Shown: positions 1,549 to 35,725 of the stretch, piece by piece
How the letters are laid out: each line of letters starts with the position of its first letter
Numbering within the stretch: the stretch's first letter is position 1
Source: Caballeronia sp. NK8
GTDB lineage: Bacteria; Pseudomonadota; Gammaproteobacteria; Burkholderiales; Burkholderiaceae
Reading direction: 5' to 3'
Assembly (NCBI RefSeq): GCF_018408855.1
Contig: NZ_AP024328.1
Span: forward strand, 1-64,000
DNA: 64,000 nt
The notes under the pieces: model-generated
Seen by the model: only the letters and a program-made list of their open reading frames with translations
Told to the model about the DNA's origin: nothing
Databases searched by the model: none
Translations under genes and position numbers: made by a program

Positions 1549-1583
1549 TCAACCATAAAGTTGGTGTTCTACTTTGGAGCCGG

Positions 1584-2666: not shown

Positions 2667-2669
2667 TGC

Positions 2670-12459: not shown

Positions 12460-14241
12460 ATGCGGAAAGTGACTTACAAGATCAAGGGCCGGCATGGCTC
12501 GATTGCCGACCTTGAATGGACAGACGTCCCCCCGTTCGCCGTTGTAACCGGCGAGAACGGTGCAGGTAAGACCCATCTGCTGGAAGCCCTTGGAGTAGCA
12601 ACCGGTCGCGGGGGAACGCCTCCGCGCCACCTACGGAGCGTGCAAAAGAAAGTCGTCGTCACTGTGACCACGTCGGACGGCCAACAGGTGAGTTTTAAAG
12701 ACGTTTTCCATGCTAAGGACGACTGGGAGCCAGCATCTTTTGGCTCGGCTACGGTTGAACAGGTCGTTGCCGAGGCGCAGCGGCTCTATGAGCTGGGCGA
12801 CGCTGCTTTCATAAAAGGACTGAACGATCCGCTATACGCCGACTGGACCGTAGCCCCTGATGCAATGCCGACGGAGCGGCGAGTGGCCCGTCCCGAATGG
12901 GAGCAGTTCGAGGCTCGGCTGACTGCGCAACGGCTTTCCGCAAACGTAGATGACGGGAAAAATCTCGCCTTTCTCTTTCTTGCTTACGAAGTCTTAAGGG
13001 TTGCGGCTAAGGATCGATGCCAGCGTTCCGGAGCCGACTACGAGGCTGCCCTGCTTCATCTAGGCGAGCCGCCTTGGGAGCAATTTAACCGGATGTGCCG
13101 GGAGGCAGACGTCGGTTTGGAAATTCTATCGCCCACCGTAGAGCGAAAGATCATGGCGCCTCCAAGCGGCCCTTATGAGTTGCGCATCCGTGATCTTGAG
13201 CGAGGCACCGTCGTCTCCGAAGCCGGGGCATCGTCAGGTGAGCGCATCATGTTGCACGTGGTCGCTTGGCGGTTCTTGGCAGAAGCGTCTGGGGTGCGCT
13301 ATGACCTGATATTGCTCGACGAGCCGGACGCGCATCTGCATCCATCACTCGTCAGGAAGTTTCTTCGGTTGTTGGAAAACATATTGGTCCGGCAGCATGG
13401 CGCCCGCCTTATCGTAACGACGCATTCGCCGACCACGGTTGCGCTTTCTCCCAAAGACTCAGTATTTGCACTTCGCCGCCATGGGTCGCCTCGCATCGAG
13501 AGCGTTGAGAATGTTAGTTCGCTAATCGCTAGGCTCACTGACGGATTGGTGGCTGTCGACCCAACAACACGTTTTGTCGTCCTTGAGGGTAAGACAGACG
13601 AACCTTTCTTTAGCCACGTTTGGAGCTTACTCATGGAGGCGGGCCATCCAGCGTTTCCGGGGGTTGCGTTTTTCAAACGCGATGGTTGCGCTAAGGTCCG
13701 GGAGACGGTCCGATTCCTTCGAGAGTGGGACTTCAACCGCTTTTTTGGAATACTTGATCGGGATGCGCCTCCTAACGAGAACGTGCCCGAACCCGGCCTT
13801 TTTGTGCTGAAGCGAAATGGCGTCGAGAACTACCTTTTCGATCCTCTGAACGTCTGGCTATGTCTTTGGCTTAACCATAAGAAGATGCACGCTCAACTTC
13901 ACCAGCTTCCGGATCTCAGGATAGGAGGAGGGCATCAATTGCGTCAAATGCCGACTCATGAATTGCAGGAGATAGTGAACTCCGTCTGCACTGTCGTAAG
14001 ACCTTTCTTAGAGAACACAAGTGCCAGCGCGGGCGACCCGATTGATGCGCATTTCGCTAACGGGTTGCGGCTTAGCTATCCCCGTTGGACATTTGAGCAC
14101 GACGACCACTCACTGGCTGTTGCAGTTCGCGCCGCATTCTCTCCGTACCCGTTTCCTGGTCAGGATGTGATGGATAGTTTCATGACGCTGAACCTTGTCC
14201 CTCTGGAGTTTGTTGAAATCTTTGGTGAAATCATGCGGTGA
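12460..14241 (+). CDS. OLD/PARIS-like AAA ATPase with C-terminal TOPRIM-like domain
   Basis: A 593-residue ABC-type ATPase joined to a nuclease-like domain. The N-terminal half has Walker A GENGAGKT (31-38), a signature-like 'SSGERIMLHV', Walker B 'DLILLDEPDAHLHP' and the switch His in 'TTHSPTTVA'. The C-terminal third has 'VLEGKTDEPFF' and 'FGILDRDAP', the acidic Glu...Asp-x-Asp pattern of TOPRIM or DUF4435 domains. Such fusions occur in OLD-family nucleases (GajA) and in PARIS (AriA plus AriB), both antiphage systems. The start at 12460 is preferred over 12319 because GGAGAGG precedes it and homology begins there. It sits alone between the two receptor copies. Which of the two families it belongs to is not settled. 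Confidence 0.75.
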   Translation: MRKVTYKIKGRHGSIADLEWTDVPPFAVVTGENGAGKTHLLEALGVATGRGGTPPRHLRSVQKKVVVTVTTSDGQQVSFKDVFHAKDDWEPASFGSATVEQVVAEAQRLYELGDAAFIKGLNDPLYADWTVAPDAMPTERRVARPEWEQFEARLTAQRLSANVDDGKNLAFLFLAYEVLRVAAKDRCQRSGADYEAALLHLGEPPWEQFNRMCREADVGLEILSPTVERKIMAPPSGPYELRIRDLERGTVVSEAGASSGERIMLHVVAWRFLAEASGVRYDLILLDEPDAHLHPSLVRKFLRLLENILVRQHGARLIVTTHSPTTVALSPKDSVFALRRHGSPRIESVENVSSLIARLTDGLVAVDPTTRFVVLEGKTDEPFFSHVWSLLMEAGHPAFPGVAFFKRDGCAKVRETVRFLREWDFNRFFGILDRDAPPNENVPEPGLFVLKRNGVENYLFDPLNVWLCLWLNHKKMHAQLHQLPDLRIGGGHQLRQMPTHELQEIVNSVCTVVRPFLENTSASAGDPIDAHFANGLRLSYPRWTFEHDDHSLAVAVRAAFSPYPFPGQDVMDSFMTLNLVPLEFVEIFGEIMR

Positions 14242-15399: not shown

Positions 15400-19800
<4,401 letters not shown>

Positions 19801-19827: not shown

Positions 19828-20799
19828 ATGAAGGCAGGTGCCTATTGGCGGCTCCAAACTCTTATCGGCGAAATCGTGGAATTGCACCGGATGAACGATG
19901 AAGTCATTGCGAAGATCTGGCACCGCCGGATCGAATGGTCGCGAGCCGCCGCCAAGCTGAGGGCACGGGTGGTGTACGGACGTCTGGCCGTGCTGATTTT
20001 GAATGTCGTCGGTGCAATCGCGGCAACCCTGTCTGCGACGATACCCTCGCATATACCGCAAGCCAGTGCCGGGTGCGCGCTCCTGAGCGCTATCGTGCTC
20101 GCAGTCGCCACATATGTGAAAGCACACGTCATTTCCGTGGACGCGATCCGGGCCTGGACCCGGGCGCGTTCCGTGTCAGAAGGGCTCAAAACCGAGATCT
20201 ACCTGTTCTGCGCGCGGGCGCGACCCTATGACGGTGAGGATGCTGTTTCGCTCCTCAATGAGCGAACTCGCGCCATTGAGAAGCCAGCTGGCGATCTGAC
20301 GCCGCATTTGGCCGCCGTGACTGAAGCCGTGCCGAGCCCGCCAGCGATGATGGACGAGAACGAATACATCGAGAAGCGGGTAAAGCAACAAATCGACGGC
20401 TACTATCGGGCAAAGGCACGGCTGTATGCCGAGCGGTTGAGGGCTTTTCGCTGGGTCGAATTAGCCCTCGGGCTGATCGGCACCGTGTTAAGCGCCGCTG
20501 CAGCATTCACGAGTCACCACGACGTGGCCCATACCGCCACTCAATCGGGTCTGGCGGCATGGGTCGCGGTCGTAACGACGATCAGCGCGGCATTGGCGGC
20601 CCATGTAGCCGCGGACCGCTATGACTTCGTGGTCATGAGCTATCACGCCACCGCAAGCAGACTTGACGCACTAGTTGATGAATGGCAATCGCCGCCAAAG
20701 AATAAGCGCCGATCGTGGTCCAGTTTCGTCAAATCCTGCGAAGACGCGATCTCCGTCGAGAACGAAAGCTGGCTCGCGAAGTGGTCAAAAAAACTCTAA
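19828..20799 (+). CDS. SLATT/DUF4231-like membrane protein
   Basis: A 323-residue membrane protein of the SLATT group, proposed in comparative-genomic work to be a pore-forming effector in nucleotide- or receptor-controlled defence systems. It has two similar halves. The first is 'RMNDEVIAKIWHRRIEWSRA' followed by two membrane helices ('LAVLILNVVGAIAATL' and 'GCALLSAIVLAVATYV'). The second is a helical 'YYRAKARLYAERLRAFRWVE' followed by two more ('LALGLIGTVLSAAAAF' and 'LAAWVAVVTTISAALAAHVA'). It lies 27 bp after receptor copy 2, so the two are probably one operon. ATG 19891 is an alternative start and is the one preserved in the relic at 12175. Its last 4 bp overlap the convergent recombinase gene. 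Confidence 0.78.
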   Translation: MKAGAYWRLQTLIGEIVELHRMNDEVIAKIWHRRIEWSRAAAKLRARVVYGRLAVLILNVVGAIAATLSATIPSHIPQASAGCALLSAIVLAVATYVKAHVISVDAIRAWTRARSVSEGLKTEIYLFCARARPYDGEDAVSLLNERTRAIEKPAGDLTPHLAAVTEAVPSPPAMMDENEYIEKRVKQQIDGYYRAKARLYAERLRAFRWVELALGLIGTVLSAAAAFTSHHDVAHTATQSGLAAWVAVVTTISAALAAHVAADRYDFVVMSYHATASRLDALVDEWQSPPKNKRRSWSSFVKSCEDAISVENESWLAKWSKKL

Positions 20800-22607
20800 G
20801 CAGGCTCGGATTTCGGACGACGATAGAAGGTCGCGGCCTCGCGGAGCATCCGTAGTTTTTCCGCCTGCACATAGACCGAGGTCGTCTGCAGCGACGCGTG
20901 CCCGAGGATTCGTTGCACGACGTCGAGCGGCACGTCCTCGGCCGCGGCATGTGTACCGAACGTATGACGGAACGCGTGAGGCGATGTGCCAGCCAGCAAC
21001 TTGATTTCGTCGACCGACAACTCAGTGCTCATTTCCGCAATCAACCGCTTCATCGCCCACGCGATCATCTTGTTGATGCCGTCGACGTGGTAGGCGAGGG
21101 CGGTGCCGTCGGCGTACTTTTTCTGGCCGTGCGCCGTCCGAGGAACAAAAAGCGTCGACAATAGCGGGCCTTCCTTTGCCGTATCGAACTCAAGCCCGCG
21201 GTCCCGCCAATGCGCCGTCAACGCCGCGATGGTCGCGGGGCTGACCGGCACCGTGCGTTGCTTGTTGCGCTTGCCAACGATGGAGAGTTGCCAGACCGTC
21301 TCTTGGCCATCGCCATAATTCGTCGGGGACATCGCTTCCCGCCGGGCATTGACCAGCTCCTCTCGCCGCAACCCGGAGTCGCCGCTCAACAAAAGCGCGA
21401 CGCGAACCGACCTCCAGTACGCGCCATCGTCCCGGTCGCATTGTGTATCGATGTAGGCGCGAATCCGCTGCCACAGGGACGGCGGGAGCGCCCGATCAAC
21501 CCTGAGCAGATCCTCCCGCTCAACGATGAGCGGATCAGATACCGCGCTCCACGGGTTGCCGGCGAGATAGCGCACATTCACCAACCAAGCGAACGCCGCG
21601 CGCAAAGCGCGCACCGCGTACCGCTGACTCTCGGAACTGAGCTCCGCTGTGGCAAAGGGTCTCCAACGGCCGCTTACTCTCGACGCACGCGGGCCGACAA
21701 AGTCAGGCGAGGGTGCACGCAAGAAGTCTTTATAGGCTTCGCAGTCGTCGGCGAGCAGGGAGCTGAGCGGCTTGCTCCTCACGGTCACAGACCAAAGCAG
21801 GAACCGCTCGATCTCCTTGGTATAGGCGCGTAGCGTCTTAGGCTGATCGCGGTAATGGTGCAGGTAGGCGCGAACGGCATCCAGATCGTGGCGAGCTCGG
21901 ATATACGAAAAGCTGCTGTGGCGATTGACGCCATTTGTGCCCGCCAGTTCGTTCGCCAAGTCGAGCCGCTCGAGCGGCGCCAGGATGTGCGAACCTGTAT
22001 CGATCGTTACAAGGTCCGCCTCGGGCGCGCGGAACGGGTCGTCGAGGATGACGTCCGACGCGACGTACGCGCCGAGGTCGCGTTCATGGTGGCGTAGCCA
22101 GGACACGATGTGTTGTGCGCGACCCGGCCCAATGCGCGGCACCGCGCGCCACCAGCTTCCGCCCCGCCGGTTACAGAAGTCCACCAGTTCAGCCAGCGTC
22201 TGAACGCCCGCGTCTTTCAGCCGCCGGGCGACCAGCGGCCGGAACCACATGCCGACGCCCTGCGTCGGCTCGGGCTTGGCGACGGCCAACAGCGCCGCCT
22301 GCTCGACCATCTTGAGCGTCACGGCGGTCAGGCGCGCGCTGCCGTGGGCCTTGGCCGACGACTTCAGGTGGTCGGCGAGCACCGATGAGCCATGCTCGAG
22401 CGCCAGTTCCACCAGTTCCGCCTGCATGCGCCGCAGAAACGCCTCGACCCAGGCGGGCGTCGCGTCGTTGCCGTCTTCGTCTTCGGAAAAGTACAGACGC
22501 GTAATCGTCGACGCGGGAATGCGCTGGACGAACGCGCGCAACGCCGCGAAGTGGTTGCGCGTGTACGCCGCGCGGCTTTTTGTGACGGTCTGCGGTTTGT
22601 TGGCCAT
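20796..22607 (-). CDS. Tyrosine recombinase/integrase with DUF3701-like N terminus
   Basis: A 603-residue site-specific recombinase. Residues 15-180 form a long N-terminal region like the DUF3701 domain found in Burkholderia integrases, with a helix-hairpin-helix-like 'WWRAVPRIGPGRAQHIVSWL'. Residues 235-345 are the SAM-like core-binding domain, and 370-595 are the catalytic domain with R414 (in SGLRREE), H544 and R547 (HAFRH), H570 (LGHAS) and the nucleophile Y579 (TSVYVQ). All catalytic residues are present. Three related 24-bp sites with recombinase-site symmetry lie 70-290 bp upstream of its start and are probable substrates. It may resolve plasmid multimers or move or invert DNA. Confidence 0.88.
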   Translation of the reverse strand: MANKPQTVTKSRAAYTRNHFAALRAFVQRIPASTITRLYFSEDEDGNDATPAWVEAFLRRMQAELVELALEHGSSVLADHLKSSAKAHGSARLTAVTLKMVEQAALLAVAKPEPTQGVGMWFRPLVARRLKDAGVQTLAELVDFCNRRGGSWWRAVPRIGPGRAQHIVSWLRHHERDLGAYVASDVILDDPFRAPEADLVTIDTGSHILAPLERLDLANELAGTNGVNRHSSFSYIRARHDLDAVRAYLHHYRDQPKTLRAYTKEIERFLLWSVTVRSKPLSSLLADDCEAYKDFLRAPSPDFVGPRASRVSGRWRPFATAELSSESQRYAVRALRAAFAWLVNVRYLAGNPWSAVSDPLIVEREDLLRVDRALPPSLWQRIRAYIDTQCDRDDGAYWRSVRVALLLSGDSGLRREELVNARREAMSPTNYGDGQETVWQLSIVGKRNKQRTVPVSPATIAALTAHWRDRGLEFDTAKEGPLLSTLFVPRTAHGQKKYADGTALAYHVDGINKMIAWAMKRLIAEMSTELSVDEIKLLAGTSPHAFRHTFGTHAAAEDVPLDVVQRILGHASLQTTSVYVQAEKLRMLREAATFYRRPKSEPA

Positions 22608-22679
22608 TGGCGGTTTCTTGACGTTCGCTGAGAGGCCCGTCAGGACGGGACGTAGATGCCCTACCCCCTGATTTTACCC

Positions 22680-22703
22680 ATTAAACGTAATCCTGATAAT
22701 ACG
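22680..22703 (+). repeat. Candidate recombinase site 1
   Basis: A 24-bp element beginning ATTAAACGTAAT and ending GATAATACG. With the next 10 bases it forms a palindrome with arms CCTGATAAT and ATTATCAGG around ACGA (22692-22713), the geometry expected of two recombinase-binding arms around a short crossover region. It is directly repeated, with changes, at 22792. Confidence 0.6.
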
Positions 22704-22791
22704 AATTATCAGGCATGGAGGGACGTTTTTCGGCAGATCTCCATGCCGCTGGCCGACCAAAGCCGTTGATGGGTCGTACCGCAGCGGCAAG

Positions 22792-22815
22792 ATTAAGCGT
22801 AATGCTGCTAATACG
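22792..22815 (+). repeat. Candidate recombinase site 2
   Basis: A 24-bp element ATTAAGCGTAAT plus GCTGCTAATACG, in the same orientation as site 1 and 112 bp from it. It lies within an imperfect palindrome whose outer arms are AAGCGT and ACGCTT (about 22796-22827). Confidence 0.6.
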
Positions 22816-22871
22816 ACTTATCACGCTTGAAATGACGTCCACCAGTGCCTAAAGTCGGCGTGGGAGCGCCA

Positions 22872-22895
22872 CGTATTAGCAGAATTACGCTTAAT
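22872..22895 (-). repeat. Candidate recombinase site 3 (inverted)
   Basis: The minus strand reads ATTAAGCGTAAT plus TCTGCTAATACG, differing from site 2 at one base, in opposite orientation. An inverted pair would allow inversion of the short segment between sites 2 and 3. Confidence 0.6.
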
Positions 22896-24362
22896 GGCGG
22901 GCGCAGGGTTGGCGAGGTTCTAAAGCGTCGACGGAAGCGCCCGCCGCGCCCGGCTGATCTGCGATCACGGGTTCGTTTGACCCAGGAGCGCCCGATGTTG
23001 CGGGGCGAGGCAAGCACTTCCGGGCGTCGTGGGCCCCTCTGCCAACACACGAAGGCCGTGGCGCCCCGGTCGAGGGAGCGTCGAATATGGCGGTTGGGAA
23101 CGGGTCGGGCACCGTTCGCCGCAGCGAAACGCAGGATCGTGCCACTGACTTAACGAGGGTGGCTCGCTTGACGCTAAAGGCCGCTTACCGCAATGGGCCG
23201 GTACGCCGCCCCTTTTACCGATCTGTGAACTCAAGACCATAGCCATGCGCCTTTCGCGGGCAGCCCGCCGCGTCGCTTCGCGCGGCGAGCATGTCTCAAT
23301 CGGTTGCAGGCCACGGAAACCATGCTCGCCGGCGCCTAGTAGGATGACCGGTCCATTTCAAGAGAGGAAGGCGTTTAGGACGTCAGTCAACGGCGCGCAA
23401 GGCAAACGGGGCGAGGAGGGTTCGCCCGCGGGCTTCGCCCAAGGACCTCGACGATCCGGTCGCGGGAGCGAGCCAGTGTGCCGGAGGCGGCTCACGCTCG
23501 GTAGGCGGTCAGTGGAGGGGGCATAGGCGCCTCGCAGTAAAAGATTTACCGATTATCCACCGTCGCGAGATTCGCCGCGGCAGATTTTGCCGCTACTAAC
23601 ACTGAATGTTGAATGCCCATCCGCCCCACCGCTGACCGTCCGTCGCCCGTTCATGGCCGAGGCGTGTTCGTGCTCACGCGCATCAGTTCCGGTGAGGTGC
23701 TGTCTAAGTGCGAAGGCTAGCTTCTCCCTTAGAAGGAAGCGCAGCGCCGGCCGCTCAGGCCGCCCTCAAGCGACTCTATGGATGTCACTGCGGATCACTT
23801 GCCTGTCCAAGGGGCGATGCTCGCGCCACGCGGCCGGTAACGGCCCATGTATGCCCGCCTTACCATTGCGACGGGCGTAGGTGGGCACCATTGGACTTGT
23901 GACCCGTCCGCTCCCCAGTTCGCTCCTCAGCCGCTTTGTCGCTCGGTGCCTGTGCTTCAAGCAAGCGAGAAAAATCGGAGCCAAGTCGGCAAGCTGCCCA
24001 AAGCTACAATTGCCATGGGTTGCAATCGGGTTGGCGAGGAGGCGGCGAGTTTGAACGAGGGCGGATCGAGGGTCATCGCCGTGCGTGGAGCTGCAGAGCG
24101 ATCCGTCGTCCGACGCCGATACGCTGGGCAGCGATCGATCGCACGGCGCGAATTCCGAGGACTTGACGATCGCGGGTAAGGGAACGCATGAGGTCTGTTG
24201 GGTCTGCCCACGGAGATCCCTTGGAGTCGCCGTGCACTCGTCGGGGGAAGAGTTCGGCTCAATCGCTTCGCTAGGGTGTTTGTGGCCGTCGAACGGTGTC
24301 GGCAGCGGGCGAGACGACGATACAATATGTATACGTCAATCCCTGCAGTCGCCAATTAAGAG
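22896..24362. other. 1.5 kb without a convincing gene
   Basis: Several frames of 70-130 codons exist on both strands but overlap each other, lack ribosome binding sites and have Arg/Pro/Ser-rich compositions typical of spurious frames in GC-rich DNA. The right end contains an AT-richer stretch with TACAAT at 24321-24326, which may be the -10 element for the defence operon that starts at 24363. This may be decayed DNA next to the recombinase. Confidence 0.5.
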
Positions 24363-25661
24363 ATGAAAAAAGTTCGGCTGTTGCATCTTTCAGATATCCA
24401 TTTCCACCCTCCGGGCGCAATCGGACACGATCCCGACTATGCGCTTCGGGAGGATCTCCGTTTGGATCTCGCGGCGATGGTTGCGGGGCGAGGTCCTCTC
24501 GACGCGATTCTAGTAACTGGAGATATCGCGTTTTCGGCGGCTAAGGTTGAGTACGAAAATGCTTCCGAGTGGCTCGATGCGATGGCCGACACCGGCGGTT
24601 GCGGGCGTGAGATGGTGTACGTATGTCCTGGCAATCACGATATTGACAGAGAGTTCATCCGCAAGAACGGGCTGGTTGAAGACTTGCACGATAGCGTGCG
24701 AGGTCGACCGTCACACTTCGAGCGGGAACAGCACCTCATGAGGCGCCTGGAACAAGACGTTGCCCGCGAGTTGGTGTACTCACCCCTGACGGAGTACAAC
24801 AAGTTTGCTGCCCGGTACGATTGTGCTTTTTTTGCTGATGAGCGTTACGCTTGGGACAGTGACGACTTTGTGCTCAACGACGGGTCTGCCTTGAGGATAC
24901 GAGGGCTGAATTCAGCGCTACTCTCGGGTCCCCGCGATGCACGCGGCTCCTTGTTTTTGGGCGCGAAGGCTTACACGATTACAAGGCGCGCCGGCGTTGA
25001 ATACCTGACAATGTGCCACCATCCACCGTCATGGTTGATTGATGGCGCCGAGGCGCACCGATCTCTGGAAGACCGCGCACGTATTTTGTTATTTGGTCAC
25101 GAACATGATCAGCGTATTGCGTTCGGTCGTGACAATGTCGCTTTGTACGCTGGCGCTACCAATCCAGCTCGGGACGAAAAGGGTTGGAAGCCGGGATACA
25201 ACATCATAGAAATCTGGGTGGAACGCGCCGGAGATGTCCGCCAGCTCCATGTGGAGGTGGTAGCAAGAGAATGGCAGGACCGTCCGGTGCAGTTCCGTAA
25301 CCACGAGGATCGTAGGAACAGGCCAACTCACGTTCACCATTTTGAGCTTGAGCCTTGGATCGCACCACACGCGTCGGAGGCTCCGGCAATGGTAACCCCA
25401 AGCGAGAATGGTGGTCCGACGGCCGAAGCGCCGGCCGTGAAAGAGGAATCTCCGCGTCCGCCTGCAATGCGATCGATTCTCCACGCATTCTTTCGGCTGC
25501 CAATCTCTCGGAAAAGCGAAATCGTCGGGAAGCTTGGCCTGCTCGATGACAGCGAGACACGGCTACCGGAAGTCGAGCGCTTCAAGCGTGCAATCGAACG
25601 CGCGAAGCAGCAGGGTAAGCTAGAGACGCTCTGGAAAATGACAATGGAACGGGGAAGTTAA
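24363..25661 (+). CDS. Calcineurin-like metallophosphoesterase with C-terminal adaptor domain
   Basis: A 432-residue protein. The N-terminal 270 residues carry the full set of dimetal phosphoesterase motifs: 'LHLSDIHFH' (DxH), 'ILVTGDIAFS' (GD), 'VCPGNHDID' (GNHD), 'TMCHHPPSW' and 'LLFGHEHDQ' (GHxH). It could therefore cleave a nucleotide, nucleic acid or phosphoester. A flexible linker (about 320-365) leads to a compact helical C-terminal domain, 'FFRLPISRKSEIVGKLGLLD' ... 'RFKRAIERAKQQGKLETLW', resembling adaptor domains that couple effectors to GTPase-centred conflict systems. It starts an operon of five genes with a 3-bp gap to the next. I infer that it is the effector or toxin of the system. 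Confidence 0.82.
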   Translation: MKKVRLLHLSDIHFHPPGAIGHDPDYALREDLRLDLAAMVAGRGPLDAILVTGDIAFSAAKVEYENASEWLDAMADTGGCGREMVYVCPGNHDIDREFIRKNGLVEDLHDSVRGRPSHFEREQHLMRRLEQDVARELVYSPLTEYNKFAARYDCAFFADERYAWDSDDFVLNDGSALRIRGLNSALLSGPRDARGSLFLGAKAYTITRRAGVEYLTMCHHPPSWLIDGAEAHRSLEDRARILLFGHEHDQRIAFGRDNVALYAGATNPARDEKGWKPGYNIIEIWVERAGDVRQLHVEVVAREWQDRPVQFRNHEDRRNRPTHVHHFELEPWIAPHASEAPAMVTPSENGGPTAEAPAVKEESPRPPAMRSILHAFFRLPISRKSEIVGKLGLLDDSETRLPEVERFKRAIERAKQQGKLETLWKMTMERGS

Positions 25662-25664
25662 ACG

Positions 25665-26777
25665 ATGTCGGAGACGACCGCACAGTATCTATCGCGCTTG
25701 CACCTCTCAACTGGTCTGGTATCGGATACGGATGTAGTGGACCGCAGGGCAACGGCGATCAAGTCGGTAGCTGAAAAGTGCACAATCGAACAGGCCGTCA
25801 TCGGTGCGTCGGTCGCGGCTGGCATCGCGAGCGATTTTTCTAAGCTGCAGTGGTTGACCACGCCGATTTCCGCCGCTGATCCTACATACGCACCTGTAGG
25901 AATTGACAAATCCGCAGCTATCGCCGCGTCTGCGTTCACGAACGCGGTGCTTGCGGGTTCGGACAAGCGCAGCTCGGCTGCGGCGCTCGTTGTGTTGTCA
26001 GCGGGCCTGTCTGCCGCGCGAGTTACCATCGTCGACGATCGGCTTTCGGCCGCGGCCCAGCGACGTTTGTGGGCAATCCAGCAGATCGGGGGGCCGCAAA
26101 TTAAATATAGTCAACCATCGGCGTCGGTTGTGGCGGAGCAGATCGTGGCGCTAAGCACCCCGTTGGCGCAAAACAATGCCCCAGCGGCGGTTGAGCCGTT
26201 GAAGGCGGTAGTTGATGGGCTCGTGAAGGCAGACGCTGCACAGGGCAAAGCAGCGTCTGAGGCAGTTTCAGCGATTATCACCAGACAAAATCTGCTAGAA
26301 GCAGAAGTGCAAATGCTGTGGTGGGTAGTCGGTAAGGCGAGTCACGAGTTGCTGAAACCGTTTGCCGATCTTCCGGCCTATGAAGCTGCCGCTCGTGCCG
26401 CGAAGGAGCTCGTTGGGATGTTTTCGCCGCATCGGCCATCAGGTCCATTCGCAGCACCATCGCTGTTAGAGCGCGTTCTGGAGTCGAATCAAAAATCGAG
26501 GTCTGCCGCACAGACACTTGAGAAGGCAATGAGCGGACTCGCTAAGGAGGTGCGCGCAGCGTTGTTTGTTGCTAGGCCGTCTGCATCCGCTGCGCCGGCC
26601 GCATTTCCGATCATGCTCGCAGCGGAATTTTCTCTTGAAAGCAACGACGAGCCGGACTGGAAGCCTCGGTTCACACGTACATCCCATGTTGACGCAACGC
26701 ACGAGCTCACTCCGGTCGAGTTCGCCAAGCAACTTCTTCGTGAGTTCCTGCTATGGAAGATGCTGTCAACGTCGTAA
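25665..26777 (+). CDS. All-helical GTPase-associated protein (GASH-like)
   Basis: A 370-residue protein without catalytic motifs, rich in Ala and helices, beginning 'MSETTAQYLSRLHLSTGLVS'. Its N-terminal part resembles the region described as the GTPase-associated system helical (GASH) domain; this rests on composition and operon position and needs a profile search. The C terminus, ending 'ELTPVEFAKQLLREFLLWKM', may contact the GTPases. It begins 3 bp after the phosphoesterase gene and its end overlaps the next gene by 25 bp, indicating tight translational coupling. The likely role is a scaffold or inhibitor between effector and GTPases. Confidence 0.6.
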   Translation: MSETTAQYLSRLHLSTGLVSDTDVVDRRATAIKSVAEKCTIEQAVIGASVAAGIASDFSKLQWLTTPISAADPTYAPVGIDKSAAIAASAFTNAVLAGSDKRSSAAALVVLSAGLSAARVTIVDDRLSAAAQRRLWAIQQIGGPQIKYSQPSASVVAEQIVALSTPLAQNNAPAAVEPLKAVVDGLVKADAAQGKAASEAVSAIITRQNLLEAEVQMLWWVVGKASHELLKPFADLPAYEAAARAAKELVGMFSPHRPSGPFAAPSLLERVLESNQKSRSAAQTLEKAMSGLAKEVRAALFVARPSASAAPAAFPIMLAAEFSLESNDEPDWKPRFTRTSHVDATHELTPVEFAKQLLREFLLWKMLSTS

Positions 26778-27793
26778 CGCCCAAAGGTAAGTGCCGCACT
26801 TCTGGATGCTTCGCCCCAGACGAGCGCTGTATTGAAGGTCTGACTTTAGAGGAATGCCCGAACTTCACGTTTGGGGAAATCGAGCGAGACGATTCTACTG
26901 AGCAGAGACTGGTTGAAGCCCGCGGGCATGGACACATCGAAGCTACCACAGTGATCGGTCGGGGGGGCGCGGCATTTTCTGCAGCGGAGGCCGACTCATG
27001 CATCTTAAGCATGCCGCTACGCTCGACGGTCGGAGTTGTGTCGCTCGTAGGCGTGCCGGATTCCGGCAAGACGACGCTCCTCGCAAGCCTCTATGAGATA
27101 GTGCGTCGAGGCCTCGTTCATGGAGCACTCTTCGCAGGGAGCGAAACGATCCGCGGTTTTGAGGAACGGTGCCACTATTCGAGACTTGCTTCGTTCCGGT
27201 CGTCGCCGGACACACCGCGCACTGCCGCGGAGTTGAGACTGCTTCATCTTAGTGTGGCATTGGAGGGTACCGGCAAACGGATCGAATTGTTTTTCGCTGA
27301 CCGCCGCGGCGAACAGTTTCAGGATCTGCTCGATCGCCCAGCGCTGAATGACAGCTTCATAGAGGTACAACGCGGAAGTCACGTCGCATTTCTCGTCGAT
27401 GGAGACCATCTGATCGATGGTGGTAAGCGGGAGGCCGCAATCGCGAAAGTCCAGCGGCTTGCGATTGCATTGAAAGACAAGCTCTCGGATACATGTGCGA
27501 TCCAGCTGGTTGTGACCAAGAACGACCGACTGGAAGGTCATACCGATGAAGCGTTTATTCGCAGCAGGATCGACTCGCTATTCAAGCGAATCAGCCAAAC
27601 CCTCAAGGCTGACGTTCGCGTCTCAGTGCACTATATCGCCTCGAGAATGCTCGGGGAACCAGCGAGCGGACTGAATGGATTGCTGGAGCAATGGCTCCAA
27701 ATCTATCCTGCCGCGCAACGCGAAGCGATATCTGTACCTTTGGGGTCCAACGCGTTCGAACGCCTGATGAACGTCCAGACGGGGAACGAATGA
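26753..27793 (+). CDS. Cys-rich P-loop GTPase (double-GTPase family, first member)
   Basis: A 346-residue GTPase. The N terminus has a zinc-ribbon-like set of four cysteines (C14, C19, C26, C35 in 'CRTSGCFAPDERC' and after). The G domain has Walker A GVPDSGKTT at 100-108, a DRRG switch-2 motif in 'FFADRRGEQF', and a degenerate specificity motif TKND in 'LVVTKNDRLE'. It resembles the 'double-GTPase' (DO-GTPase) families that occur in adjacent pairs in predicted conflict systems. The start overlaps the upstream gene by 25 bp and its stop overlaps the next start in ATGA. It is likely a switch controlling assembly or activation of the effector. Confidence 0.75.
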   Translation: MEDAVNVVTPKGKCRTSGCFAPDERCIEGLTLEECPNFTFGEIERDDSTEQRLVEARGHGHIEATTVIGRGGAAFSAAEADSCILSMPLRSTVGVVSLVGVPDSGKTTLLASLYEIVRRGLVHGALFAGSETIRGFEERCHYSRLASFRSSPDTPRTAAELRLLHLSVALEGTGKRIELFFADRRGEQFQDLLDRPALNDSFIEVQRGSHVAFLVDGDHLIDGGKREAAIAKVQRLAIALKDKLSDTCAIQLVVTKNDRLEGHTDEAFIRSRIDSLFKRISQTLKADVRVSVHYIASRMLGEPASGLNGLLEQWLQIYPAAQREAISVPLGSNAFERLMNVQTGNE

Positions 27794-28671
27794 AACGGAA
27801 ACTCATCATCGCCGGCATGCCCGAGTCCGGCAAAAGTACTTTCATCGCAGCTCTGCGGCACTTACTCGTCCACCAAGATGTTCGGACGAAGCTGGTTGCG
27901 ACTCGCCTATCTGATGCGGAAGGTCATCTCAATCGCCTTGAACAGGAATGGATCGCTTGCGAGAAGGTCGAGCGGACAAAGCAGACTGTCGAAGAATGGG
28001 TGTCACTGTTCGTTAAACAAGTTGACGGCAGCCAAGAAGCAGTATTGATGATTCCAGATTTCTCTGGAGAAGCCTTCCGACGCCCCGCTGCGACCGGACA
28101 TTGTTCTGAGGCGGTCGCTTCAATGCTTCAAGAGATTGATGGGATGTTGCTGTTCACGAACGCCGACCGCGGCGCGGACGACATTCGACTAGAGCAATTC
28201 GCTGGGCTACTTGACGAGGCTATCGACGCCTCGGAAGACCTTGTGGAAGGTGTGCCAGTCGGATCTAAAGAGTCTGTCAATGAGGACGTCGTCCCGTTTG
28301 AGCCGCTGAATATGCCCGAAGAGCCGCTCCTCGTGGAGATATTGCAGATTCTAAACAGACCGCCCCGCGCGCCAAGAAAGAGGATGCTCGCGATCATTGT
28401 GTCAGCGTGGGATGAAGTGCAGGATAACCCCGCGGAACCGGAGGAGTGGCTCCGTCAGCACCGTCCAATGCTCTGGCAATACCTTCGCAGCAACACAACT
28501 TTATGGGAGAGCCGCGTTTACGGAGTTAGTGCTCAAGGAGGCCGGCTACCGCAGGATAAGGTCGCTCTGCAATGTACGATTCCTGGTCAACGCGTCCAGA
28601 TCGTTGGCCACCAAGCGCAGCCGCACGATCTAACAGATCCGATCGATTGGCTGATGGCGAGCACCGAGTAG
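27790..28671 (+). CDS. P-loop GTPase (double-GTPase family, second member)
   Basis: A 293-residue GTPase starting 'MKRKLIIAGMPESGKSTFIA' with Walker A at residues 9-17. The switch-2 equivalent is 'MIPDFSGEAF' and the specificity motif is replaced by 'IVSAWDEV', a divergent SAWD in place of NKxD. The start at 27790 (ATGA overlap) is chosen over the in-frame ATG at 27691, which lies deep in the previous gene. The neighbouring pair of divergent GTPases is the hallmark of the system. The two probably form a heterodimer or respond in sequence, which is inference. Confidence 0.75.
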   Translation: MKRKLIIAGMPESGKSTFIAALRHLLVHQDVRTKLVATRLSDAEGHLNRLEQEWIACEKVERTKQTVEEWVSLFVKQVDGSQEAVLMIPDFSGEAFRRPAATGHCSEAVASMLQEIDGMLLFTNADRGADDIRLEQFAGLLDEAIDASEDLVEGVPVGSKESVNEDVVPFEPLNMPEEPLLVEILQILNRPPRAPRKRMLAIIVSAWDEVQDNPAEPEEWLRQHRPMLWQYLRSNTTLWESRVYGVSAQGGRLPQDKVALQCTIPGQRVQIVGHQAQPHDLTDPIDWLMASTE

Positions 28672-28679
28672 TACGCAAA

Positions 28680-30782
28680 ATGAGTATGCCAAAGGAGTTG
28701 CTCGAGTTTGACCAAGCAGTGCACGGCTATAGGGACGGGCACCGCCAGCTCTATGGGTCCACCATGTTGGATCTGGCGAGTGCCGACACTATGACCCTAG
28801 CGAGTGATCTCTTGATCTCACGCAGCCTGAAGAACAACGAAAGCTATCTCACCGGATATCCGCTAAAGGGAGCGCATAAATATGTGTTTGCGCGGACGTG
28901 GCCTGCGCCCGAAATGTCTCGGCCTGGATGTGTCTGGACTCATTCGCTCATCATTGACTATCTGACTGTTTCGAAAATCGACGACGCTCGAGCCATTTTG
29001 TCGATGTTCAAGCGACCGACTATCGCTACTTTGTCGGACTACGGTTCCCCCATAAATTTTTCGGAGAAGCAATCGACGCTTGAGCAAGCGATCTCGGAAG
29101 AGATAGCGCTTGAGGTCGTACATTGCCTGTATGCAGCGGTGAGGCCGCAAAAATCGCGTGTGATTTTTGCGAATCGGTCGACAGTAGATAACACATCCAT
29201 AGCACTTTCCATTTGGTCTCAAATGCCTCCGCGACTGCGCCGAGCGGCAGCTTTCTGCACAGGCGACTCAGCGAGCACGGTACCTTCTGATTCTGACATC
29301 GCTATCGGATTTTCGTCTTTGCCGACGGAACATACACTCTGCGACTTGCAATACTTTTCGGATGCTCGCTCCGGTGGTATGCGTCTACTCGCAAAGGATC
29401 TAACGCGTCGATTCATGACACCTCTGCGTCAGTTTTTGCGCCGCTATTCTGTTGATGTGAAGGATCCCCTTGGAGCGATCCGACCGTTGGCAGAGTTCTT
29501 CGATTCACTTCGCCTCGCACGCGATCCCCAGGATTTTCGTGCAATTGCCGCTACAGTCGGAGAGGCTTTTCCAACACGCATCGACGCGCGGTCCTTCAAA
29601 CAGGACCTTCTGCTGGGACGATTCTTTGATCGGAGCGATGCACTGATGCTTCGAATGAATTGCGTTTTCGGAACACTGCAAGCGGTCGAGAGCGCCGAGC
29701 TGCCTATGGTCGTTCCCGAAGGCAGCGAAGTTAGCGAACTATCTAATCTGTTAGCACGTACGCCACAAGCACTGCCGTCAGTTTTGAAGTTCTATAGTTC
29801 TGATGTAGTCGGCGATCTGGTAAGGCTCTCCTTGGCTGAGGCGGCGTCTCAAGTTCCTGCCAGCACAGTGTCTTTTTTAGGATTCGAAGATGACGAAGCA
29901 TTGGCGGTTGCGAGGTTATGGCCTAGTGTCCTGCACGAGCGCAATTTTTGGTTAACTCACCGCGATGTGCGAAGGCAACTTCTCGATGCGTCTGGATTAG
30001 ACTCACGAGCGGTATCTCGCTTTATCGACGTGTTCTGGGAAGAACTGAATGAAGAGGATTTCCGTTTGTGTCTGGTAAAGGACCACGAGGTAACCGTTAG
30101 CGCGATCGGTGAGCGGTGGCGTGCCGACGATCCCGCCACAGAAGTGTCTACGCGGGCGATCAGGAGCTTAGCGGCTTACGATGGACTCCTTTCTAGAGCA
30201 GTACGAGTCGCTGGCTGGTTACCGCGTGTACTCTGGAAGCAAATTGGAATTCAATTGGCCAGTGCCGTTTGCGGTCCAGAGGATGATGCGGTGTGGGCTA
30301 CGATTTTAGCCAGGTCCAATGTTCAGAGATTGGGGCGCGACGAAAGTGCTCTTGCGTGCGTCTTTTTTATTTGGTCCTTAAGCAGCGCGCCAGCTACCTC
30401 CATGCAGTTGATCAATGCCAGCTTCGATTTACTGTACGATATCGCTTGGAATGGGCAACTTGTACCAATTGAGCAAGAGGTCCTCGAAAAGGGCTTGCCG
30501 CGAGACGGGGTCTCGAGTTGGGATTACTGCAGGCGCCTTGCGCGGGCGCTCGTTAGGCGGGTGATCACGGGCGAAGGTTGGGAGCTTGAGGTGCTGTCGC
30601 TCGACTTAAGCGCTCTTACTATTGGCGGTGTGATCAGGGAAATCGAGTCACGCAGCGACGCTCTCGATTTGTTGAGATCCCTCGAGGATTCTCTCGACCG
30701 CGTTTCGGGCGCGGAGCGGCGTTGGAGCAAAGCTCTTAAAACCGCAATTAAGCAGCGAACGTCTCTTTGGTCGCTTTGGTGA
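28680..30782 (+). CDS. GAP1-like GTPase-associated protein
   Basis: A 700-residue protein beginning 'MSMPKELLEFDQAVHGYRDG' and then 'HRQLYGSTML'. The HGYxxGH motif near the N terminus is the recognisable signature of GTPase-associated protein 1 (GAP1, N-terminal domain). A middle helical region and a C-terminal domain follow with no catalytic motifs visible. The start at 28680 lies 8 bp after the previous stop; ATG 28686 is an alternative with no stronger ribosome site. It is the last same-strand gene of the operon. GAP1-type proteins are predicted sensors or scaffolds for the paired GTPases. Confidence 0.75.
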   Translation: MSMPKELLEFDQAVHGYRDGHRQLYGSTMLDLASADTMTLASDLLISRSLKNNESYLTGYPLKGAHKYVFARTWPAPEMSRPGCVWTHSLIIDYLTVSKIDDARAILSMFKRPTIATLSDYGSPINFSEKQSTLEQAISEEIALEVVHCLYAAVRPQKSRVIFANRSTVDNTSIALSIWSQMPPRLRRAAAFCTGDSASTVPSDSDIAIGFSSLPTEHTLCDLQYFSDARSGGMRLLAKDLTRRFMTPLRQFLRRYSVDVKDPLGAIRPLAEFFDSLRLARDPQDFRAIAATVGEAFPTRIDARSFKQDLLLGRFFDRSDALMLRMNCVFGTLQAVESAELPMVVPEGSEVSELSNLLARTPQALPSVLKFYSSDVVGDLVRLSLAEAASQVPASTVSFLGFEDDEALAVARLWPSVLHERNFWLTHRDVRRQLLDASGLDSRAVSRFIDVFWEELNEEDFRLCLVKDHEVTVSAIGERWRADDPATEVSTRAIRSLAAYDGLLSRAVRVAGWLPRVLWKQIGIQLASAVCGPEDDAVWATILARSNVQRLGRDESALACVFFIWSLSSAPATSMQLINASFDLLYDIAWNGQLVPIEQEVLEKGLPRDGVSSWDYCRRLARALVRRVITGEGWELEVLSLDLSALTIGGVIREIESRSDALDLLRSLEDSLDRVSGAERRWSKALKTAIKQRTSLWSLW

Positions 30783-30958
30783 TGACCAAATGGCGACCGA
30801 CATGCATTGAACACGAATTTCATAAACGGGCATCCCGGTCTCGCACTTTGCGAGGTCTGAGACTGAAAGCTCCAACGACGAGCGCCCGACATTCCCCGAC
30901 GAAATGACGTTTTCGCGATGCTCGGGCGCTTGCAGGCCAAGCCTAACGTTTCGACCGG

Positions 30959-32032
30959 CTATTTCGGCTTCGCGGCAACCTCGCTTGGTTGCTTGCGCAT
31001 CCGACGAACCATCCAACGATGAATGCTGCGGATGCCTTCCGAACCAGGCCGCCCACTTGTCCTGTTGAGCGGGACCATGCAGAAGACTACGAGCCCAGGA
31101 ACTAGTAGAAGAAGGGAGGTCAAGGCATCCCCGACGATGTTAAGTGGCTCAGCGTTCAACCAGCCATAATGGCCGCCGACCAGAACAGTGCTCAACGCGA
31201 CGGCAGATGCGCTGATCAACGCTTTCGCGGTTAGGAGCGCCACCCATTTCCAAGTGGTCCAGATGAACCGGGGCCGTCGCGCGGCGCCGCTTAACCCCGC
31301 CATCAAATACGCGCACCATTGCGTAAGCGAGATAAACGCTAGGAGGCCGAGGAGAAGAAAAACTTCCCGCTGTAAATCCAAGGAATACTCGACGGTGGCC
31401 AATATCGCGCGCGCAAGTGCGTTTCGTGGCTCTCCGTCGAAGCCAAATATGCCGGACTCGCCGGCAGCAACGAGAACAAATGAACTTCCAAACAATGCGC
31501 CGAAATAGGCCGCCCACATCGGGTAGATGACTTCAGGCTCGGATTTTGCCTTTTCGTTCACGACGTGGAGCATGAATGCGATCATATAGAGCGCGACGAA
31601 CATGACTGCCGCGTAGGGATGCGAACGTACGAGAGAGCTGACCGTCGTTTGCTTGTCGAGTGGCATCCAGCCGCACCCGCTGATCAACCTGTAGCGATTT
31701 GTCTCGAGGGGCTGGAAGACGAGTTCTTGTGTTTCCAAGCCATCGCCAAATTGGGCTTTCGAAAACCCAGCGTTGGTAAGGAAACGCGTGATTTTGGCTT
31801 CTCCGTCATCACGCTCGCGCGACGGAGTCACCTGCGTCTCATCGCGATGATTGGTCACGTCCACGGTGATTCTTCCATGGTCTGCTACGTAGTGCCCGTC
31901 AAGCTGCGGCCAAAGCCACAGCCACGCGAGGGTGCACCAAGCAGTGATTGCCACGATCGAAAGCAGCCTGCTTTGTACTCTTCGGTTATCGCTCCGAGGA
32001 ATTAAGGTAAGCCATCTAGTTGCTGATGCCAT
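30959..32032 (-). CDS. Multi-pass membrane protein convergent with the GTPase operon
   Basis: I do not recognise this 357-residue protein. From 'MASATRWLTLIPRSDNRRVQ' it has a first membrane helix ('SIVAITAWCTLAWLWLW'), an extracytoplasmic domain of about 100 residues with a 'LISGCGWMPL' element, then five or six further helices ('AAVMFVALYMIAFML', 'MWAAYFGALFGSSFVLV', 'VFLLLGLLAFISLTQW', 'LLTAKALISASAVALS', 'ALTSLLLLVPGLVVFC') and a basic cytoplasmic tail. The start at 32032 is preferred over 32131 because upstream residues look non-coding. It converges on the GAP1-like gene with a 176-bp gap. It may be a membrane effector or unrelated cargo. Confidence 0.6.
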   Translation of the reverse strand: MASATRWLTLIPRSDNRRVQSRLLSIVAITAWCTLAWLWLWPQLDGHYVADHGRITVDVTNHRDETQVTPSRERDDGEAKITRFLTNAGFSKAQFGDGLETQELVFQPLETNRYRLISGCGWMPLDKQTTVSSLVRSHPYAAVMFVALYMIAFMLHVVNEKAKSEPEVIYPMWAAYFGALFGSSFVLVAAGESGIFGFDGEPRNALARAILATVEYSLDLQREVFLLLGLLAFISLTQWCAYLMAGLSGAARRPRFIWTTWKWVALLTAKALISASAVALSTVLVGGHYGWLNAEPLNIVGDALTSLLLLVPGLVVFCMVPLNRTSGRPGSEGIRSIHRWMVRRMRKQPSEVAAKPK

Positions 32033-32506
32033 CTCGTTCACCCTCGGCACGCGGGGACATGAAGCGAGACCGAACACCGACCGGTCGGTTGTGCGGGAAA
32101 CCAGCATCGGTCTTGCCGTTTTAAAACGCAACAGCGGGAACTGCTGCCGTGCCTATAACCAAGAAGGGATTCGATTTTCATACCTTACGGCCCATCCTTG
32201 CAAATCCGGGTTATCGGCAAAAGCGCGGATGTCTGAAGACCGACGCGTTGGCAAAACTCCTGGTAAGGACTTTAATCAACTGCTCCGGCGGGTGCCGAGC
32301 ATCTTCGAACGTGTCGCAGCTCTCAACGCGTGCCGAGAACGTTAAACAATTGTGGTAGCCGATGAAGCCTGCTAACAGGAGATTTACGGTTACAGACGCA
32401 CCGCAACTAACTTGAGAGTATCGGAGGTTGCCTCGGGCGGGGCAGGCAACAAGACTTCTAGGGGCTGGAAACCTGGATCTGTAACTGCGAACTCAAGGAA
32501 GCACAT
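32033..32506. other. Intergenic between defence and catabolic regions
   Basis: Short frames exist on the plus strand (for example 32149-32358) without ribosome sites or recognisable similarity. The stretch presumably contains the divergent promoters for the membrane-protein gene and the RraA-like gene. Confidence 0.4.
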
Positions 32507-33407: not shown

Positions 33408-34907
33408 ATGCCTGGAACCTACGTGACGGACCAGCAGGTCCGACTCTATATGAGTAAGCGCAAACATCACACTCAGGAAGTCGCCGCGGCGATGGCGGGC
33501 ATGAGCGTTCGCACGGCCCGGCGCATCGAGCATGAGGGCCGTCTGCCGTCGCAGAAGCCATCACGCGCGTGGCGTACACGTCACGATCCGTTCGCGGAAG
33601 TTTGGGAGAGCGAGGTCGTGCCATTGCTGCGCCACGCGCCCCGGCTCAAGGCCATCACGTTGCTGTGCAAGCTGCAGGAGGCGCATCCGGGCCTCTTCCC
33701 TGACAGCATGCGGCGTACGCTCGAGCGGCGCGTCAGCCAATGGCGCGCACTCGAGGGCCCTGGCAAGGAGATCTTCTTCCCGCAGCAGCACTTGCCCGGC
33801 GTGCAGGGGCTCTCGGACTTTACCGACATGCGGGATCTGCGCGTGACGGTCGCCGGTGCGCCCCTCGATCACCGGCTCTATCACTTCGTGCTCGCGTTCT
33901 CGCACTGGGAATATGCCTATGTCGTCGAAGGTGGCGAGAGCTTCGAGGCCCTCTCCACCGGATTACAGAACGCGCTGTGGCAAGCCGGCGGCTGCCCGCA
34001 TGAGCATCGCACCGACAGCCTATCGGCAGCGTTCAAGAATTTGCAGACTGAAGAGGACTTCACGGCTCGCTATGACGCACTGCTGGTGCATTACGGCATG
34101 GCCGGCACGCGCAATAACGTCGGCGTGGCCCATGAGAACGGTAGTGTGGAATCCTCGCACCGCCATCTGAAGGAGGCGATCGACCAAGCGCTGATGCTGC
34201 GTGGCCATCGCGACTTCGACGATCGGGCTGCCTATGACGCGTTTGTTCGCGACGTCGTCATGCGCCGTAACCGCCGTAACGCAGCGGCGTTTAACGCTGA
34301 GCGCGAACATTTGCAGGATTTGCCCGCACATCGCACGACCGACTTCATCGAAGAGGAAGCACGCGTGACACGCTGTGGCACCTTCACCGTGCGGGGCATT
34401 CTCTACAGCGCGCCGTCGCGCCTGATTGGTCACCGTCTGAAGGTGCGCGTCTATGCCGATCACCTCGACTGCTATCTGTCCGGCGCGCTCGTGCACAGCA
34501 CAGCACGGGGCTCGCATGCGGCCAATAGCCGCCGTCGCAAGCTCGACTACCGGCACTTCATTGAGGCGCTCAAGCGCAAGCCCCAGGCGTTCAAGGGGCT
34601 AGCGTTTCGCGACGACTTGTTTCCGCGCGAGGCGTACCGCCGGACGTGGGAGCGGCTTGAGGCTCGGCTCACGCAGCGCGAAGCCTGCAAGACCATGGTC
34701 GGCTTACTGGAACTGGCCGCGAATCACGGAGTCGAGGCCGTTCTTGCTGAGCGGCTCGAGGCGTTGCTCGCCGCTGGCGAGCTGCCCGATCTCGAGCAAC
34801 TACAGAATGAATTTGCGCCGCGGCAGGCGCAATGCCCAGACGTGGCTGTGGACATGCCGACGGCCGCTCTCTATGACACGCTGCTTGGCGAGGAGGCATC
34901 GGTATGA
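33408..34907 (+). CDS. istA: IS21-family transposase IstA
   Basis: A 499-residue DDE transposase. An N-terminal HTH ('QEVAAAMAGMSVRTARRIEH') binds the terminal repeats. The integrase core carries the catalytic acidic residues in 'LSDFTDMRDLRV' (first Asp), 'EHRTDSLSAAF' (second Asp) and 'NGSVESSHRHLKEAID' (Glu). Length and organisation are normal for the family. Its stop overlaps the istB start (ATGA), the usual coupling that keeps both proteins in ratio. No frameshift or truncation was seen. Confidence 0.95.
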   Translation: MPGTYVTDQQVRLYMSKRKHHTQEVAAAMAGMSVRTARRIEHEGRLPSQKPSRAWRTRHDPFAEVWESEVVPLLRHAPRLKAITLLCKLQEAHPGLFPDSMRRTLERRVSQWRALEGPGKEIFFPQQHLPGVQGLSDFTDMRDLRVTVAGAPLDHRLYHFVLAFSHWEYAYVVEGGESFEALSTGLQNALWQAGGCPHEHRTDSLSAAFKNLQTEEDFTARYDALLVHYGMAGTRNNVGVAHENGSVESSHRHLKEAIDQALMLRGHRDFDDRAAYDAFVRDVVMRRNRRNAAAFNAEREHLQDLPAHRTTDFIEEEARVTRCGTFTVRGILYSAPSRLIGHRLKVRVYADHLDCYLSGALVHSTARGSHAANSRRRKLDYRHFIEALKRKPQAFKGLAFRDDLFPREAYRRTWERLEARLTQREACKTMVGLLELAANHGVEAVLAERLEALLAAGELPDLEQLQNEFAPRQAQCPDVAVDMPTAALYDTLLGEEASV

Positions 34908-35725
34908 ACGCGCCCGCAATTTACGATGCCGCCCGTATGGGGCTGATGCTCACCGAGTTGCGCTTGCCGACGATCGCGCGGCTATGGTCCGAGTTCACAC
35001 AGCGCTCCGACAAGGAAGGCTGGCCATCGACGCGCCTGCTCGGCGCGCTGCTCGAGCACGAACTGGCCGAGCGCGCGAAACGGCGCATCGAGCGGCATCG
35101 CGTCGAATCGCATTTGGACCCAAGCAAGACGCTCGAGGCCTTCGACTTCGGCTTGGTACCAATGGTGTCCAAGGCACATGTAATGGCGCTCGCGAGCGGC
35201 GACTCGTGGCTCGAGAAAGGCGCCACGATCCTGCTGTTTGGGCCACCGGGTGCCGGGAAGAGCCATTTAGGCTCCGGCATTGGTCATGCGCTGATCGACG
35301 CCGGGTACCGGGTGCTGTTCACACGCACCGGCGAAATCGTGCAGAAGCTGCAGGCGGCACGCCAAAGCCTGCAGTTGCCATCGATGCTCGCCAAGCTCGA
35401 TCACTTCGATCTGATCATCCTCGATGACCTGTCGTACGTCAGAAAGGACCAGGCCGAAACGAGCGTGCTGTTCGAATTGATTGCGGAAAGATACGAGCGT
35501 CGAAGCCTTCTCATCACGGCCAACGCCGCGTTCTCCGGCTGGAATGATGTCTTCCCCGATCCCTCAATGACGGTCGCCGCCATCGACCGACTGGTGCATC
35601 ACTCGACGATCTTCGAGCTGAACGTGGAGAGCTACCGGCGTCGCAGTGCCGATGACAACAAGCGCGCGCGGCGGCGTCAATTACCCCACCCCGAATCGGA
35701 AGGAGCGACAACTATGCCGAGCTGA
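34904..35725 (+). CDS. istB: IS21-family helper ATPase IstB
   Basis: A 273-residue AAA+ ATPase related to DnaC that selects target DNA and activates IstA. Walker A is 'LLFGPPGAGKSHLGSGIG', Walker B 'FDLIILDDLSYV', and 'LITANAAFSGWNDVF' contains the sensor region. The C-terminal basic tail is followed by terminal repeats of the element. Complete and in the normal position relative to istA. Confidence 0.95.
   Translation: MNAPAIYDAARMGLMLTELRLPTIARLWSEFTQRSDKEGWPSTRLLGALLEHELAERAKRRIERHRVESHLDPSKTLEAFDFGLVPMVSKAHVMALASGDSWLEKGATILLFGPPGAGKSHLGSGIGHALIDAGYRVLFTRTGEIVQKLQAARQSLQLPSMLAKLDHFDLIILDDLSYVRKDQAETSVLFELIAERYERRSLLITANAAFSGWNDVFPDPSMTVAAIDRLVHHSTIFELNVESYRRRSADDNKRARRRQLPHPESEGATTMPS

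Follow-up and report, generated by a model that had tools for sequence, protein, structure and literature searches.

The window analysed here is a stretch of 64,000 nucleotides at the start of contig NZ_AP024328.1 (C7), one of 7 contigs in the 9,216,772-base genome of Caballeronia sp. NK8 (GCF_018408855.1). It contains a row of five + strand genes (24363–30782), each recovered as a coding open reading frame (ORF), that encode the parts of a GAP1-N1-type double-GTPase system. The first gene (24363–25661) encodes a 432-residue effector with a calcineurin-type metallophosphoesterase domain (residues 5–249; Pfam PF00149, 35.6 bits against a cut-off of 21.5) and a C-terminal GAAD domain (residues 369–429, positions 25467–25649; PF19976, 58.9 bits, cut-off 23.6), which is the sole GAAD match in its own genome. 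GASH (25665–26777), an all-helical protein of 370 residues, is matched over residues 7–366 (PF19994, 129.5 bits; alignment A3). DO-GTPase2 (26753–27793, 346 residues) is matched over residues 95–315 (PF19993, 164.7 bits), DO-GTPase1 (27790–28671, 293 residues) over 6–288 (PF19975, 224 bits), and GAP1 (28680–30782, 700 residues) over 10–110 (PF20012, GAP1-N1, 100.8 bits); the cut-off for each of these four families is 27 bits. The starts given for DO-GTPase1 and GAP1 are internal ATG codons of longest ORFs that begin at 27691 and 28572, respectively.

A previous annotation made without database searches (the sequence-only reading) had described five tightly coupled genes with gaps of 3, −25, −4 and 8 bases, and recomputed coordinates and spacings were the same. 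Its assignments to GASH, paired GTPases and GAP1 were borne out, as was its effector, a calcineurin-type phosphoesterase with a C-terminal adaptor: all five proteins score above curated Pfam cut-offs. The profile search that it had put forward as a check matched the families strongly, so the failed matches that it had named as grounds for abandoning the assignment did not occur.

The sequence-only reading had further recognized an architecture predicted by Aravind, Burroughs and colleagues, and the same set of parts is found in the computational description by Kaur et al. (2020; PMC7159879). In the portion of that paper available to us, to which all our statements about it refer, the systems share with this locus GAP1-N1, GASH, two DO-GTPases (one with a zinc ribbon) and a calcineurin phosphoesterase-GAAD protein, and the parts list is identical. 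The calcineurin phosphoesterase is given there as the most common GAP1-N1 effector and the GAAD-bearing effector as a frequent configuration, and the authors predict action against invaders. Judged by its encoded proteins, the locus is the GAP1-N1 architecture of Kaur et al. with the commonest effector, a type of system that is already known. We found no experiments on these families in the open-access literature searched, where the 2020 computational study was the single paper found to deal with them; this agrees with the earlier statement that only computational descriptions, and no experimental mechanism, were known.

The arrangement is conserved well beyond Caballeronia. Relatives of GAP1 numbered 564 among 8000 scored candidates, and 80 loci were collected via GAP1 alone (the best 80 of 134 confirmed), giving 81 with the window. 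Their components were matched with profiles built iteratively, starting from the proteins of the window, and phyla were assigned from the organism names in record titles, which cover Pseudomonadota, Bacteroidota, Acidobacteriota, Planctomycetota, Verrucomicrobiota, Spirochaetota, Chloroflexota, Cyanobacteriota and Myxococcota. The order GAAD protein, GASH, DO-GTPase2, DO-GTPase1, GAP1 on one strand occurs in 73/81 loci, a count that includes L022, where effector and GAAD are separate ORFs, and L079, where DO-GTPase1 is divided between two ORFs; the one-protein phosphoesterase-GAAD form is present in 56. Four exceptions to the order (L058, L062, L066 and L085) start no more than 113 bases from a contig end. 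In L065 a SEFIR protein without a GAAD match occupies the effector position, L073 has a phosphoesterase without a GAAD match and a protein without a GASH match at the GASH position, and L080 has a phosphoesterase-GAAD gene directly before DO-GTPase2 with no GASH match. The protein at the GASH position of L073 (6343–7281, 312 residues) has no other Pfam match either and may be a divergent or replaced GASH. DO-GTPase1 lies alongside GAP1 in 80 of the 81 loci, the exception being L019, where GAP1 stands alone. This lone gene (8992–11037) belongs to a Sphingomonas genome and is followed at 11580 by a serine recombinase gene.

The phosphoesterase residues D11, H13, D54, N91, H219, H220, H246 and H248 are identical in 59/59 sequences. 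They fall in DxH, GD, GNHD, HH and GHxH motifs, which we take to be the metal-ligand motifs of a dinuclear metallophosphoesterase, and because these ligands are invariant the enzyme is probably active. Some effectors of other systems are described as inactive in PMC7159879, unlike the phosphoesterase here with its intact ligands. The loci L056 and L061 are truncated by the start of their contigs and retain part of the phosphoesterase. The enzyme domain alone partially resembles PADLOC and NCBIfam defense phosphoesterase models (NCBIfam far below cut-off), and no paper on DS8/DS9 phosphoesterases was found in the open-access literature searched.

In GAP1-N1 systems a variable effector is joined to the other parts by GAAD, by EAD1 or by fusion to GAP1; here it carries GAAD (residues 369–429). 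Elsewhere GAAD follows SEFIR/TIR, PNP/UDP phosphorylase or alpha/beta-hydrolase domains, and L021, L082 and L086 resemble the phosphorylase type by eye; sub-threshold matches place it also behind a GNAT-like domain (E about 0.04) and in a 1205-residue protein with an NTPase match. In L012 (3776–6023), a patatin-like gene overlaps a separate gene for a 139-residue GAAD-only protein, which may represent a two-protein effector and adaptor or a split gene. Relatives of the effector gave 653 matches, and GAAD was labelled on 117 of the 120 listed. Among 38 whole genomes behind the loci, 37 contain exactly one GAAD and the L019 genome contains none, and there was no GAAD match in 14 control genomes. 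Since GAAD is single in 37/38 genomes, there is, as far as seen in these sequences, one adaptor-bearing protein per genome, and it is located in the system. Among GAAD proteins, 21/74 end in an NPF tail, which is found on phosphoesterase and other effectors alike and might be a docking signal.

DO-GTPase1 and DO-GTPase2 are related to one another (hhalign probability 98.9). Both retain a GxxxxGK(T/S) P-loop and DxxGE, together with SAWD in DO-GTPase1 and TKxD in DO-GTPase2. The Walker B glutamate of DxxGE is present in 79/80 DO-GTPase1 sequences (E94 of the 293-residue protein, E127 in longest-ORF numbering) and in 78/79 DO-GTPase2 sequences (E187). Because glutamate replaces the catalytic glutamine of Ras-like proteins, intrinsic GTP hydrolysis by both GTPases may be slow. 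DO-GTPase2 of the window has an N-terminal Cys4 segment (C14, C19, C26 and C35; 26792–26857), a putative zinc ribbon, and a Cys4 pattern precedes the P-loop in 48/79 DO-GTPase2 proteins, this one included. Searching the PDB with a DO-GTPase1 profile gave no chain at E 0.1; a DO-GTPase2 profile gave 79, the 60 listed being mostly P-loop stretches of unrelated NTPases.

Within GAP1, Pfam matches the GAP1-N1 region alone. An AlphaFold2 model (mean predicted local distance difference test score 91.9, predicted template modelling score 0.82) gives longin-like, alpha/beta and helical parts, where Kaur et al. distinguish N, M and C domains. Residues 1–262 of the model resemble longin/DENN regulators of GTPases. 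The predicted longin-like domain (residues 1–129; 28680–29066) consists of strands 8–17 and 21–26, helix 32–42, strands 56–62, 67–75 and 85–93, and helices 103–109 and 115–122, with an additional short helix at 94–97. Longin elements follow the order beta-beta-alpha-beta-beta-beta-alpha-alpha. According to the source text available, the domain has five beta-strands together with one short and two longer helices, and residues 1–129 as predicted match both count and order. The predicted alpha/beta segment that follows (residues 125–215; 29052–29324) contains four strands (125–127, 159–164, 190–196 and 207–212); the DENN core has a five-stranded sheet. Entries for DENND1A, DENND1B and DENND10 align over 218–223 residues of GAP1 with root-mean-square deviations of 5.2–6.0, and these alignments, as well as that to TagF (9t0n), span the alpha/beta segment. 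Residues 216–700 (29325–30782) are predicted to be all-helical, with an armadillo-like solenoid in the second half.

In a second look at the structure matches (VIA), rows 1–25 were longin, DENN, TagF or roadblock-type entries. Three were TagF, counting one titled PA0076 that we take to be TagF, and one was an archaeal Rag-like GTPase; the rest were longin/DENN. Most longin/DENN proteins regulate or bind GTPases. Like GAP1 in its predicted form, FLCN-FNIP (Lst7-Lst4), GATOR1 (NPRL2-NPRL3), C9orf72-SMCR8 and DENND1 combine a longin-type N terminus, an alpha/beta segment and helices; GAP1 is encoded with two GTPases, and in the Rag case the GTPases are a pair as well. GAP1 shows no detectable sequence similarity to these regulators, and one regulator protein is encoded in place of a heterodimer. 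MglA-MglB joins a bacterial GTPase to a GTPase-activating protein of the roadblock type, but has one GTPase, of another family, and roadblock is said in the source text available to be a circular permutation of longin. The type VI secretion protein TagF, which according to the accessible part of its source binds Fha, was considered as a homologue of GAP1-N on account of its fold match and rejected: a profile of the TagF N-terminal domain from 13 sequences, drawn from 16 matches, showed no similarity to GAP1 (hhalign probability 0.1). A search of the PDB with the GAP1 sequence gave one helical spliceosome chain (E 0.011), which we took as a chance match. The words longin, roadblock, DENN and armadillo do not occur in the main text of PMC7159879 as available to us, and no bacterial DENN link was found in the open-access literature searched.

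The longin-like domain contains a single invariant arginine, R81 (codon 28920–28922), in the predicted beta4-beta5 loop within the motif RPGCVWTH. It is conserved in 90/90 sequences of alignment A1 (the window and 89 of 120 listed matches out of the 564) and in 76/76 of alignment A4, and is a candidate GTPase-contacting or catalytic arginine. R187, outside the longin-like domain, is equally conserved in A1 (90/90). A longin-domain arginine is catalytic, or proposed to be so, in SMCR8, NPRL2 and FLCN. We do not claim that the R81 loop is equivalent to the catalytic loop of NPRL2 or FLCN, because the sources, in their available text, refer to an analogous loop without strand numbers.

The docking partner of GAAD was sought by co-divergence. 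With p-distances, the highest partial correlations of GAAD over 57 phosphoesterase loci were with GAP1-M and its own enzyme domain (0.37 each), and over all 73 loci with DO-GTPase2 (0.26) and GAP1-M (0.25). In a second pass using BLOSUM-based distances, 69 non-redundant loci and 500 bootstraps, the top partner was DO-GTPase2 in 312 replicates, DO-GTPase1 in 65, GAP1-M in 63 and GASH in 60; over 54 phosphoesterase loci GAAD was highest with GAP1-M (0.40), then GASH (0.28). Since the answer varies with the locus set, the approach was rejected as a way to identify the partner. It neither confirms nor excludes the binding of GAAD to GAP1 predicted in PMC7159879. Co-divergence of GASH with GAP1-C (0.22–0.46) and DO-GTPase1 (0.17–0.42) was stable to bootstrapping. 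A PDB search with GASH gave, apart from a single other chain, designed helical bundles, none with an E value better than 0.085.

Taken together, we favor, with a probability of roughly 0.6, the interpretation that the locus encodes a double-GTPase system of the GAP1-N1 type whose effector is a phosphoesterase and in which the state of the GTPase pair is set by a longin-type regulator. The two different DO-GTPases would act as a pair, on which GAP1 would sit via its predicted N-terminal longin/DENN-like module and, in the manner of longin proteins acting on Rag, Rab and Arf GTPases, would set their nucleotide state. GASH, with its helices, and the armadillo-like C-terminal part of GAP1 may hold the complex together and may receive the trigger, and the effector, docked by GAAD on GASH and/or GAP1, would be kept off. 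An invader or stress would shift the GTPase pair and so release or activate the phosphoesterase, which could then cut phosphodiester bonds in nucleic acid or nucleotide and stop growth or the invader. We propose that this switch has an analogue in the control of Rag GTPases by FLCN-FNIP or GATOR1. A more far-reaching proposal, that GAP1-N1 systems are a bacterial counterpart of the longin/DENN GTPase-pair switch that serves nutrient sensing in eukaryotes, with a one-chain, longin-DENN-like GAP1 ending in an armadillo-like tail, R81 as catalytic or contact residue and an exchangeable toxic effector that is released, is tentative, and we place its chances somewhat below even.

Pfam and PDB profile searches with GAP1 gave no longin/DENN match, the fold scores of the model against longin/DENN are moderate, and a defense role of the operon is inferred. 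The longin/DENN-like fold predicted for GAP1-N1 is possibly new and may not be expected by specialists. With it, a list of domain names yields a testable prediction, namely that GAP1 binds both GTPases and alters their GTP turnover. The systems occur in many bacterial phyla. If the prediction is true, it would link bacterial conflict switches to how the longin regulators of Rag, Rab and Arf GTPases in eukaryotes arose, and a real DENN-like part would mean that the longin-DENN arrangement extends beyond eukaryotes.

The same five parts could instead form a system in which GAP1 is a mere scaffold, its N-terminal PAS/longin-like sheet serving for docking as in TagF, with GTPases that are self-regulated or regulated by GASH. 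We consider this unlikely: apart from the TagF entries and the archaeal Rag-like GTPase, the top 25 structure matches are longin/DENN proteins, mostly GTPase regulators or binders, and GAP1 almost always has DO-GTPase1 beside it.

Less probable again is a housekeeping or stress-signaling operon whose phosphoesterase destroys a nucleotide second messenger and that has no role in defense. The three partial matches of the effector among solved structures fit such a role, being named phosphohydrolase (2dxl and 2zo9, E 4.4e-6) and LMO2642 (2xmo, E 3.1e-4) rather than nucleases. No PADLOC system model fits the operon, and a DO-GTPase1 relative was absent from 50,697 phage records. The distribution points the other way, being patchy within the genus and partly plasmid-borne: counting the window's own genome, GAP1-N1 was found in 6/101 genomes (4 above cut-off) and DO-GTPase1 in 4 (3 above cut-off) out of 58 genomes from the genus, and a DO-GTPase1 relative was found on 20/72,556 plasmid records, 14 of which were called conjugative. 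Exchange of the effector for SEFIR/TIR, phosphorylase, alpha/beta-hydrolase or patatin domains also argues against this reading, as does PMC7159879, which counts TIR, PNPase and alpha/beta-hydrolase as effectors of such systems. Chance adjacency of unrelated genes can be dismissed, because 73/81 loci in unrelated bacteria share the gene order.

A defense-island test was also performed, with 120 ORFs drawn at random from 187 in the flanks of 20 loci and 120 from 158 control ORFs, which came from 20 stretches of the same genomes, 11.7 kb from the start of each (ORFs >900 residues dropped). At a PADLOC E value of 1e-15, 51 models matched in the flanks and 30 in the controls; in the 25 rows listed, each model matched a single ORF, and 9 system names appeared in the flanks against 6 in the controls. 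This enrichment was not used, as it is too weak and the flank set wrongly includes the L012 patatin gene, which itself probably belongs to the system.

Genes for a Rep3 initiator and ParA/ParB in the first 3.4 kb (window 1–3380) make it probable that the contig is a plasmid or secondary replicon. Among the matches listed, Caballeronia cordobensis has the nearest relative of the locus, with a GAP1 that is 95% identical. Window 24192–30842 is 96.7% identical to that copy, the similarity stopping 60 bases past the GAP1 stop, and the integrase region at 20812–22713 is 82% identical. That the whole block is closer to the C. cordobensis copy than the neighboring gene suggests that the five genes moved as a unit.

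The neighboring gene (20796–22607, − strand) encodes a tyrosine recombinase with DUF3701, and this region likewise adjoins the C. cordobensis copy. The ∼1.75 kb between integrase and effector (22608–24362) contain no complete ORF of more than 132 residues; parts are 79–93% identical to C. cordobensis, with one short piece inverted. No Rfam family reached its gathering score in the window, this interval included. Directly behind GAP1 lies a 390-residue ORF (30959–32131, − strand) without a Pfam match at E 0.01, and an IS21-type transposase/IstB pair is found farther downstream (33408–35725). Two large nSTAND1-WD40 genes (7744–12087 and 15400–19800) have WD40 parts made of arrays of a 126-base unit (16.3 copies with 73% matches in the first, 15.5 with 83% in the second), whose copy number is likely variable, and an AAA_21 (putative AbiEii-type) ATPase gene lies between them (12319–14241). 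A SLATT-domain membrane gene (19828–20799), 27 bases behind the second nSTAND1-WD40 gene, is possibly its effector and is separated from the five-gene system by the oppositely oriented integrase.

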